A DNA stretch of 64,000 nucleotides from Mageeibacillus indolicus UPII9-5 (GTDB lineage: Bacteria > Bacillota > Clostridia > Saccharofermentanales > Fastidiosipilaceae). A model generated the notes under the pieces. That model searched no databases. It saw nothing but the letters and a program-made list of their open reading frames with translations, and had not been told where the DNA came from. The first letter of the stretch is position 1. Each line of letters opens with the position of its first letter. The stretch lies in assembly GCF_000025225.2 (NCBI RefSeq), contig NC_013895.2:1550001-1614000 (forward strand), written 5' to 3'. The translations under genes and the position numbers were made by a program. Positions 58,044 to 61,060 of the stretch are shown one piece after another.

Positions 58044-58259
58044 CTATTTATCCTCCTTAAAAATAAAAACTTCTTTGATATCTCGTCCCAAAACTTGGCA
58101 AATCTTGTACGCTGTTTCTATTGTTGGACTGATCGTTTTATTTTCATAAGCCATAATGGAACGGCGTTTCAAACCGACAGCTCGGGCTAATTTGTGTTGC
58201 GTCAAGCCCATGGCTTTTCGGTATTCGCATATCTTGTTATCTACCTCCAGTTCAGCCAT
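58044..58259 (-). CDS. XRE-family (Cro/CI-like) DNA-binding protein
   Basis: A 71-residue protein made almost entirely of a helix-turn-helix (NKICEYRKAMGLTQHKLARAVG, RRSIMAYENKTISPTIETAYKIC). A CAGGAGG site precedes the ATG. Two exact direct repeats overlap its promoter and are probable binding sites. It is co-transcribed with the 148-residue protein downstream. Typical of small regulators of mobile or defence-like modules, but no toxin or phage gene is recognised beside it. Confidence 0.88.
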   Translation of the reverse strand: MAELEVDNKICEYRKAMGLTQHKLARAVGLKRRSIMAYENKTISPTIETAYKICQVLGRDIKEVFIFKEDK

Positions 58260-58346
58260 AGAATTCCTCCTGTTTCGCCAACGCGGCTCGCTGGGCTAAA
58301 TCGAGTCAAATTGTGCTGTCAGCACCACCTAAACGAGCTGCCCTTG

Positions 58347-58403
58347 GTTACATTTATAGTACCATGTTACATTTATAGTACCACGGCAATTAGAACATGT
58401 CAA
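58347..58403 (-). promoter_or_regulatory. Promoter and direct-repeat operators of the XRE regulator gene
   Basis: Minus-strand TTGACA (58403-58398), 17-base spacer, TACTAT (58380-58375). The 18-base word TGGTACTATAAATGTAAC occurs twice (58383-58366 and 58364-58347) with a one-base gap, one copy containing the -10. This fits autorepression. Confidence 0.7.
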
Positions 58404-58443
58404 ATTAGCCAATTCCCGAACCGCGTCAATAAAAATTTAGTTT
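58397..58443. repeat. 47-bp direct repeat, copy 1
   Basis: Identical over 47 bases to 58764-58810, 367 bases away. It supplies the TTGACA -35 of the promoter of the XRE gene. The sequence outside the repeat differs. Confidence 0.95.
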
Positions 58444-58483
58444 CTAATTCCAGTTAAGCATTGCTTTTTCTAGCACTGAAAAA

Positions 58484-58585
58484 TTACAATTGGCTCTTCT
58501 TATAAGGCCGGTTTCTTTTTGCATCAGAAACATTACGCCATCGTTTGTGTTTTTCTTTTGCTGAAGATACTGGGGTAAAATCCAT
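58484..58585 (-). CDS. Possible small basic peptide
   Basis: A 33-codon frame (MDFTPVSSAKEKHKRW start, ending KKSQL) rich in Lys and Arg. It has no good ribosome-binding site of its own and overlaps a 23-codon frame at 58533-58604 (MTETVKYGF start). That frame does have GGAGAAGG in front of it. Either could be a leader or small peptide, or neither. Confidence 0.25.
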   Translation of the reverse strand: MDFTPVSSAKEKHKRWRNVSDAKRNRPYKKSQL

Positions 58586-58604
58586 ATTTAACCGTTTCTG
58601 TCAT
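58533..58604 (-). CDS. Possible 23-residue peptide after the structured leader
   Basis: ATG at 58604 with GGAGAAGG 3-10 bases upstream, placed right after the terminator of the structured RNA. Product ends KRKTQTMA. If read, its synthesis would depend on terminator read-through. No homology recognised. Confidence 0.3.
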   Translation of the reverse strand: MTETVKYGFYPSIFSKRKTQTMA

Positions 58605-58615
58605 TGCCTTCTCCT

Positions 58616-58645
58616 AAAAAAACAGAGAGGACCGAGCCTCTCTGT
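58616..58645 (-). terminator. Intrinsic terminator of the structured leader
   Basis: ACAGAGAGG and CCTCTCTGT (58622-58630 and 58637-58645) form a perfect 9-bp stem with a 6-base loop, followed by seven T on the minus strand. Confidence 0.85.
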
Positions 58646-58735
58646 TCGCTTTAATGTTTCACCTTTAGGATATAGGTAGTGAGACACCTTCTTTAATGTT
58701 CCACCTTTAATGGTAGCGGGACACCATCCTTATTT
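58616..58735 (-). ncRNA. Candidate structured RNA: tandem hairpins and terminator
   Basis: From a predicted start near 58735 the minus strand reads two similar units, A (58725-58691) and B (58688-58649). Each has the frame GGTGTC(C/T)C(G/A)CTACC, a variable middle, then AAAGGTG(G/A)AACATTAAAG. Arms of each unit pair (GTC.C..ACC with GGTG.AAC), and one C-G pair in A becomes a U-A pair in B. A perfect 9-bp GC/AU terminator stem follows. The tandem similarity and covariation suggest two copies of one small RNA fold, a riboswitch-like leader or a regulatory RNA. No known family was recognised. Confidence 0.4.
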
Positions 58736-58741
58736 AGTGAA

Positions 58742-58770
58742 AGCGTAACAAATATTTTTAGGAATGTCAA
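58742..58770 (-). promoter_or_regulatory. Promoter of the structured leader
   Basis: Minus-strand TTGACA (58770-58765, inside copy 2 of the 47-bp repeat), 17-base spacer, TACGCT (58747-58742). Confidence 0.5.
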
Positions 58771-58810
58771 ATTAGCCAATTCCCGAACCGCGTCAATAAA
58801 AATTTAGTTT
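58764..58810. repeat. 47-bp direct repeat, copy 2
   Basis: Exact copy of 58397-58443. It carries the -35 box of the leader promoter and overlaps the end of the frame at 58804-59004. Confidence 0.95.
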
Positions 58811-59138: not shown

Positions 59139-60974
59139 TCATTCGCTTGCAGAGGTATTTGGCACATCATCCTTTTGCCTTGGCACTTGCTCGGGCTGTG
59201 GCTTTAGCTCTGGTATTGGCGGATTGGGAGTTGGATCTGGTGTCGGGTCAGGCGTCGGTTCAGGATTCTTCGTGTAAATAGCATATACAGTCATATCACC
59301 ATTAACAGTAGTTTTCCCATCAAACGCAGTACCTTTACCATCTGCCTTCGTATTCCATTCTTTGAATGTATAACCAGCCTTCGTTGGCTTCTTCGGCATA
59401 GACTCATCAGTCAACGCATCAGTATCAATAGCCTTACCAGTTTCTACCTTTACCGTTGCATGCGTCTTATCGCCATCCTTGAAAGTAACCGTGCTTTGAG
59501 CAGGCTTCTTAACAATAAAGCTATAAGAAATCAAGTTTGGCTGTTTAACCTTACCCTTGTCATCTTTTTCTAAGGCTTCATCAATACCATCACTAGACTG
59601 TTTAGCGGCAAACACAACAGGAAAGACCACATAAGAATGGTGGGCCTCATTATTTTCGGTTGTTACTTGATCTTTATGACGATATTGATCTTTGAAAGGA
59701 TAAGGATCTTGGTTCTTTAACGCTTCATCACTTGTGGAATAGAAATATTCATAAACACCCGAAGCTCGCCCGATCACCTGACTTGGTTTGTTAACTTCAA
59801 CATCTTTACCAATCTCTAATTGTTTAACAGATAAGGTAATTTTTCCTAATTGTTGTATCTTCTTAAAACGATCTTTCAGCTTTTCAAATTTATTCTTGTC
59901 ATTTGTAGGGTTAACATCCTTCATACGAATGCCTACCGTAATTTCATTACTTTGCTCATCATATTTTTTAACATTGACTTCAAAATCATCAGGAGCGCCA
60001 CTGATTGTATAACTGGTATCTTTCGTCGGTTTTAAGCCCTTAGGTAATTTCATGCGATACACAAAATTGCCATCAGCTTGCGTCAATCCATTCTCCGGCG
60101 TGTTATTCACCATCGTATAATAGGCAGGAAATTCTGAACCAATAATTCCTAAAAGTATGGAATTCTGTATGCGACGAACTAAATCAGTATCAACGGTAAA
60201 TTCTAAATCAAGCTTATCACCAATATGGTGTTCAACCATGGTTGAAGATTTTTGATCTTTTTCTTTAATATCAGCGCGAATATCATAGTTGCCCTCAAGC
60301 TTAGACTCTTTACCCGCAATCAGGTCATCATTTATTTTCTTCAACTCATCTGAATACAATAAATCTTTTTTTGCATCAAAGTTATAGGGATTCCATACTT
60401 TGCCATCTTTCCAATAGTCATATGGTGGATTTTCCTTATGTTTTATAGCTGGATAATGATCAAGTGCATAGGCTTCATAAGATAGCATCACAATCTTAAA
60501 TGGTCTCATAAAGGTAAGTGAACCACTGCCCTCAATAATCTTCTTTGTTTCTTCGGTATCATCAAAAATACCCATCGTTGGAAAATCTAAACAATAGCCC
60601 GATTCATTCAGCTTGTCTGTCCAATCCAATTTATTCTTTTGAAAATAAGGAATTAAATCTTTTGGAATAAAGCCCCCAAAGCCATTATTTTTATTCTCAT
60701 ACCAAACAAGATCTGACCAATAATTTTGTTTAACAGTCTTTTCGGCTAAAGTCTTATATTCATTTTGTTTAGCCAATACTTTGTTAGTATATTCATCAAA
60801 TGTAGGGACTTTGCCTGTTTTATAATCTTCTTCTTTAAAATAGTCATACCTTCGTTGAGCTATTGAAGCATTGTTATTGATTTCAGCAAACACTTGGGTA
60901 GTCCCTGCCATTACAGCGAATGTGACGAATATGCCCATTAATAAGCTCATCGCCTTTTTTAATAAAGCTTTCAT
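59139..60974 (-). CDS. Surface/secreted protein with InlB-type repeat and cut-short sorting signal
   Basis: A 611-residue protein. The ATG at 60974 (AAAGGAGG site) is preferred to 61031, which lies inside the leader terminator. Residues 1-31 form a signal peptide (FAVMAGTTQVFA-EI). A large unrecognised ectodomain (about 32-490) follows, then an InlB B-repeat-like module (about 500-580, GYTFKEWNTKADG to DMTVYAIYT), and a PTPDPTPD Pro-rich spacer. The end reads DDVPNTSASE, then TGA TGA: a VPNT motif like the VPNTG of the 28050 gene, but with no membrane span or basic tail. So the anchor has been lost and the protein is probably secreted, or the original gene was truncated. The gene is clearly AT-richer than the operons around it. 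Confidence 0.82.
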   Translation of the reverse strand: MKALLKKAMSLLMGIFVTFAVMAGTTQVFAEINNNASIAQRRYDYFKEEDYKTGKVPTFDEYTNKVLAKQNEYKTLAEKTVKQNYWSDLVWYENKNNGFGGFIPKDLIPYFQKNKLDWTDKLNESGYCLDFPTMGIFDDTEETKKIIEGSGSLTFMRPFKIVMLSYEAYALDHYPAIKHKENPPYDYWKDGKVWNPYNFDAKKDLLYSDELKKINDDLIAGKESKLEGNYDIRADIKEKDQKSSTMVEHHIGDKLDLEFTVDTDLVRRIQNSILLGIIGSEFPAYYTMVNNTPENGLTQADGNFVYRMKLPKGLKPTKDTSYTISGAPDDFEVNVKKYDEQSNEITVGIRMKDVNPTNDKNKFEKLKDRFKKIQQLGKITLSVKQLEIGKDVEVNKPSQVIGRASGVYEYFYSTSDEALKNQDPYPFKDQYRHKDQVTTENNEAHHSYVVFPVVFAAKQSSDGIDEALEKDDKGKVKQPNLISYSFIVKKPAQSTVTFKDGDKTHATVKVETGKAIDTDALTDESMPKKPTKAGYTFKEWNTKADGKGTAFDGKTTVNGDMTVYAIYTKNPEPTPDPTPDPTPNPPIPELKPQPEQVPRQKDDVPNTSASE

Positions 60975-61009
60975 CTTCTTTGCCTCCTTTTTCTGTAAAA
61001 AATGCCCAT

Positions 61010-61060
61010 AAAAAATCGACAAAATACGCACCTAACAATTAGGTACATACTTTTGTCGAT
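61010..61060 (-). terminator. Leader terminator (putative attenuator) upstream of the 59139-60974 gene
   Basis: ATCGACAAAA and TTTTGTCGAT (61015-61024 and 61051-61060) pair, with an inner ACCTAA/TTAGGT stem, and six T follow on the minus strand. Predicted start is near 61101, so it lies inside the 127-base leader, and its T-run ends 36 bases before the ATG. Like the 8087-8134 element it contains CAAAAGTAT in the stem. Confidence 0.6.

Follow-up and report, generated by a model that had tools for sequence, protein, structure and literature searches.

A probable relic of a type III toxin-antitoxin locus, with toxI nearly intact and toxN ruined, in Mageeibacillus indolicus UPII9-5

What kind of RNA is specified by two similar, foldable units that lie between a promoter-like sequence and a terminator in the chromosome of Mageeibacillus indolicus UPII9-5? 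The units are part of the window, i.e. the whole stretch of 64,000 nucleotides of contig NC_013895.2 (positions 1,550,001 to 1,614,000) that was analysed here, and positions below are those of the window. The initial annotation had placed a feature at 58616-58770 and had suggested an undescribed tandem riboswitch or attenuator, or a small regulatory RNA of about 120 bases. A feature is indeed present there, but it runs on to 58444. We are highly confident that it is a degraded type III toxin-antitoxin locus of the toxIN/AbiQ type, a known kind of anti-phage system, in which toxI is nearly intact and toxN is ruined.

Antitoxin units and their homologues

On the minus strand, positions 58770-58613 contain, in this order, TTGACA, a 17-nt spacer, TACGCT, two units and a strong terminator. 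Unit 1 (58689-58728) has the helices S1 GGU/ACC and S2 CCGC/GUGG and matched the unit model R1 with 60.4 bits (E 1e-12). Unit 2 (58647-58691) has S1 GGU/ACC and S2 UCAC/GUGA and was placed by the unit alignment A1; pair counts were used for both units. The units are about 37-45 nt long and each is predicted to be able to fold as a pseudoknot. Their likeness to each other, already noticed in the initial annotation, was borne out on the minus strand: 18 of 19 bases recur at a spacing of 42, a level reached by none of 300 first-order shuffles (maximum 15).

The pairing was assessed in an alignment of 26 distinct units taken from the window, bacteria, plasmids and phages. S1 has the general form GGY/RCC, S2 consists of a core YCRC/GUGR with two outer pairs, and the two helices interlock. 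S1 and S2 were paired in 96.6 % of the cells, with changes on both sides in 11 cells of stem pairs. None of 500 shuffles was as good as the observed pseudoknot pairing, and in slid controls the pairing fell to 32-61 %. The compensating change from C-G to U-A that had been pointed out between the two copies is real and recurs in the homologues; it is the S2 pair of columns 10 and 33, which is CG in 16 units, UA in nine and UG in one. S1 also covaries, from U-A to C-G in two Enterococcus phage units. Two interlocking and covarying helices, as judged from the 26 units, point to the H-type pseudoknot of the ToxIN family, and the presence of two units agrees with the tandem antitoxin arrays of that family, in which repeats of roughly 34-37 nt lie upstream of the toxin gene. 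At the sequence level, the proposal of a structured small RNA of ~120 nt with two folded units, an intrinsic terminator and homologues with covarying stems appears to be sound.

The terminator (58613-58647, minus strand) has an 11-bp stem, a 6-nt loop and a T run (-16.1 kcal/mol, z -4.3), much as had been described, and it lies between toxI and toxN, as the intrinsic terminator of the ToxIN family does. In the window, no stem position of either unit has changed, and neither has the terminator stem. The letters of the terminator stem are kept in three related loci (L033, L069 and L044), and unit 2 equals unit 2 of the same loci except at a few positions. The promoter claim stood only in part. 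The toxI promoter (58742-58770, minus strand) has the -35 box TTGACA (58765-58770) and the 17-nt spacer, and it could be aligned with the TTGACA-17-TATACT of the Anaerococcus locus L033, but the degraded -10 box TACGCT (58742-58747) agrees with the consensus at three of six positions and the promoter was not listed by a promoter scan of the window. As this -10 box is weaker than the TATACT of intact relatives, transcription of the window toxI is uncertain.

A distant DNA search of plasmids recovered this arrangement from the E. faecalis plasmid pGTC3, with 77 % across some 120 nt (E 1e-14), and gave a weaker match to the array in the Lactococcus plasmid p001F; both matches end directly upstream of a gene annotated as 'type III toxin-antitoxin system ToxN/AbiQ family toxin'. 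A genome pattern scan with a 19-base core found the Anaerococcus contig L033 (Anaerococcus sp. Marseille-P3625), where the locus is intact: TTGACA-17-TATACT is followed by two units, a terminator with the same stem and a toxN of 186 codons. Its protein scored 141 bits against Pfam ToxN_toxin and matched the solved ToxN and AbiQ chains 4ato, 2xd0, 7d8o and 4glk. Because the window array is homologous to antitoxin arrays upstream of ToxN/AbiQ genes, and is identical to that of L033 at 79 of 83 nt (95 %), the feature is, by its sequence, a ToxI/antiQ-type antitoxin RNA.

The term 'undescribed' has to be given up, since the homologues lie immediately upstream of ToxN/AbiQ toxin genes and are antitoxin RNAs, and this position argues against a riboswitch or attenuator. 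Control of a downstream gene by such a tandem element could be read from the two folded units preceding a terminator and a ribosome-binding site; it is nevertheless very improbable, as all intact homologues examined in detail precede toxN and not a metabolic gene, no open frame is found for 161 nt downstream, where a second promoter follows for a helix-turn-helix (HTH) gene, and the Rfam riboswitch families gave no match. A conserved association with any regulated gene other than toxN was not found. It counts against the toxIN relic that no Rfam model called the window RNA, or its intact relatives, at the gathering score. The cmscan match to the RT-14 RNA family (RF02921, reverse-transcriptase-associated RNA) was full-length but weak, its 23.5 bits being half of the gathering score of 48.1 (E 0.62), and intact homologues with the same units gave none at E up to 1; membership of that family is hardly credible. 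What looked like a tandem-aptamer RNA of a new kind is a type III antitoxin, one not called by Rfam.

Remains of toxN and the genomic setting

Three pieces of toxN follow the terminator on the minus strand, in the right order and place. The first (58578-58604) consists of the start codon and codons 1-9, MTETVKYGF, with the ribosome-binding site AGGAG before it, and equals the start of the L033 toxN at 21 of 27 nt; what had been taken for a Shine-Dalgarno sequence and small peptide frames is this decayed start. The second (58523-58579), FTPVSSAKEKHKRWRNVSD, corresponds to ToxN residues 53-71 in a different frame (tblastn, 74 % identical, E 2.6e-4 at genome size; 66.7 %, E 5.9e-4, with ToxN of pGTC3). 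The third (58444-58521), QKETGLIRRANCNFSVLEKAMLNWN followed by a TAG stop, corresponds to residues 161-185 in a third frame (tblastn, 83 % identical, E 5.7e-9). Of about 561 nt, 161 are left, in three frames: two deletions have removed about 70 % of toxN and have also broken the frame.

The Pfam family search for ToxN_toxin gave no match in this genome and was positive in 27 of 291 genomes of the class. When the Anaerococcus ToxN was compared with the genome, the sole match was the third remnant, and there was no intact toxN elsewhere. The window lacks the intact ToxN-family endoribonuclease gene that lies downstream in this family, and with the toxin incomplete one defining component of the family is absent, a point against the assignment. 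Since only three out-of-frame pieces of toxN are left and none occurs elsewhere in the genome, the locus is classed as a relic and not as a working system. The orphan antitoxin and the dead toxin are a relic of a known system and not a new riboswitch, and the locus illustrates that the RNA half of a toxin-antitoxin pair can outlast the toxin.

The nearest homologues found to the window toxI locus belong to other families. The Anaerococcus ToxN had no match in 57 other genomes belonging to the family and order of M. indolicus, and a phylum-wide search with it gave only two distant matches. With the nearest homologues found in other families, and no Anaerococcus-like toxN found in the 57 relatives, the window toxIN was probably acquired horizontally.

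Two identical 47-bp direct repeats (minus strand, 100 % identity), of which these are the only copies in the genome, flank the relic exactly. The upstream copy (58764-58810) includes at its end the -35 box used by the toxI promoter; the downstream copy (58397-58443) comes immediately after the toxN stop and has at its end the -35 box for the promoter of a small HTH regulator gene (58044-58259). Each repeat ends in a TTGACA that serves a different promoter. Flanking direct repeats would suit the ends of an insertion sequence or another repeat element, but such an origin is extremely improbable: the feature is single copy in the genome, no transposase lies beside it in the window, and its homologues are antitoxin arrays. 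The relation to insertion sequences that the initial annotation had named as a possible objection did not appear.

The related genomes G001 and G008 keep the HTH gene and its tandem TACTATAAATGTAAC operator-like sites without an adjacent toxIN segment. Insertion of a toxIN cassette at the HTH gene promoter would fit this setting, but leaves the 47-bp duplication unaccounted for. In the window, tandem 18-base sites, GTTACATTTATAGTACCA, lie over the HTH gene promoter (58345-58384) and are conserved across two further genomes of this family; they are likely to be autoregulatory operators of the HTH gene. Further along, the minus strand at 59139-61031 encodes what is probably a surface protein, in which a Listeria-Bacteroides repeat domain (Pfam Flg_new) lies close to the C-terminus.

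Related loci, phage units and the fate of toxI

A complete toxN was found in L033, L069 and L043 and on pGTC3. In other loci toxI is kept and toxN is broken, by an in-frame stop codon in L044, by a frameshift in L082 and by an N-terminal deletion fused into the terminator in L080, L081 and L083. In these last three loci, changes have begun to appear in the second unit and the terminator too, which is what decay without selection would produce. Based on the unit model, the unit type is present in six of 291 genomes of the class, that of the window included, and only one of the six (G171, locus L069) has a complete toxN. Another orphan antitoxin was seen in G008 of the same family (L008, 1498-1580), where one ToxI unit and a terminator are present but toxN is missing. 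ToxI-type units with no toxN downstream were also seen in an uncultured Clostridia MAG (L039, 125-260); there, the gene that follows resembles one for an AAA+ replication-associated ATPase. With toxN intact in some, and interrupted by a stop, frameshifted or deleted in others, these loci provide a natural series for studying the decay of such systems.

An orphan ToxI might have been retained by selection, either because it protects the cell when a mobile element brings in ToxN (anti-addiction) or for another regulatory role. The stems of the units and of the terminator are unchanged in the window though toxN is mostly gone, and toxN is broken as well in the relatives mentioned that keep toxI. 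We regard selective retention as unlikely, however, because the -10 box of the window is degraded, the second unit and terminator of L080, L081 and L083 decay too, and the toxicity of the toxin forces toxin loss to come first. In addition, toxI is equally well conserved between other loci (75 of 82 between L033 and L044), and high toxI identity alone is therefore no evidence of selection after the loss. It is also rather doubtful that orphan chromosomal ToxI RNAs in general persist as selected anti-addiction or counter-defence RNAs and form, with the toxN-less units of phages, a class of free-standing antitoxin RNAs. The window toxI is most likely what is left of a horizontally acquired locus and is decaying slowly.

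Twenty phage records match ToxI units of the window type. Eight are from Enterococcus phages (VPE25, VFW, nattely, vipetofem, 140 and EfKM29, with two records each for nattely and vipetofem) and 12 from Lactococcus phages (AM1 group, LW81 and P1048). In the five phage loci inspected, the unit follows a small gene and precedes tRNA-Trp. The Enterococcus phages (vB_EfaS_140, nattely, VPE25 and relatives) have one or two ToxI-type units and no toxN (minus strand; L052 2501-2572, L054 2501-2543, L056 2501-2533), with S1 covarying to GGC/GCC. The Lactococcus phages of the AM1 group (AM1, LW81 and relatives) have one antiQ-like unit, nearly identical to the AbiQ-type array of p001F, and no toxN (minus strand; L053 2501-2546, L055 2501-2540). 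No relative of the Anaerococcus ToxN was found in any Enterococcus or Lactococcus phage record. By analogy, these toxN-less units may be natural antitoxin decoys, and they offer a testable case of natural antitoxin mimicry; pseudo-ToxI of phage PhiTE is a published precedent for ToxI mimicry (PMC3475682). No paper describing the phage units was found, in incomplete literature coverage. A scan of viral contigs with a 17-base core gave 74 stretches, and as only one of them, from the known nattely-type phage, held a whole unit by the pattern used, viral matches to this short core alone are mostly chance.

Possible residual function and comparison with known systems

In ToxIN, the terminator keeps the antitoxin repeat RNA in excess over the toxin, and ToxN cuts the ToxI repeat RNA into units, which as pseudoknots hold ToxN in a complex where it is inactive (PMC5086642, PMC5772629). 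The window RNA, if still made from the weakened promoter, would fold as two pseudoknots. No ToxN was found in this genome for it to inhibit, and if transcribed it could neutralise only a matching ToxN arriving by plasmid, phage or another element. The analysis shows what the RNA is, that its stems covary, that the terminator and the remnants of the toxin are present and that no toxN could be detected; transcription, folding and residual antitoxin activity of the window RNA, like the horizontal origin of the locus, are inferred.

The order of promoter, tandem pseudoknot units, intrinsic terminator and ToxN-family gene is shared by antiQ/AbiQ of Lactococcus and ToxIN of Pectobacterium and Bacillus. 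The unit length in these systems is similar to that in the window, and the window toxin remnants also belong to the ToxN_toxin family, whereas the toxin gene of the window is destroyed. The window has two units compared with 2.8 in antiQ and 5.5 in ToxI-Pa, and antiQ needs at least 1.8 repeats (PMC5086642). L033 and L069, whose antitoxins are identical to that of the window at 79 of 83 and 78 of 82 nt, respectively, have the same terminator stem and toxN ends, but their toxN is complete and their -10 box is TATACT. Pseudo-ToxI of PhiTE resembles the window in having ToxI-like repeats without a working toxN (PMC3475682). However, it is phage-borne and selected as a decoy (PMC3475682), while the window copy is chromosomal and is accompanied by toxN debris.
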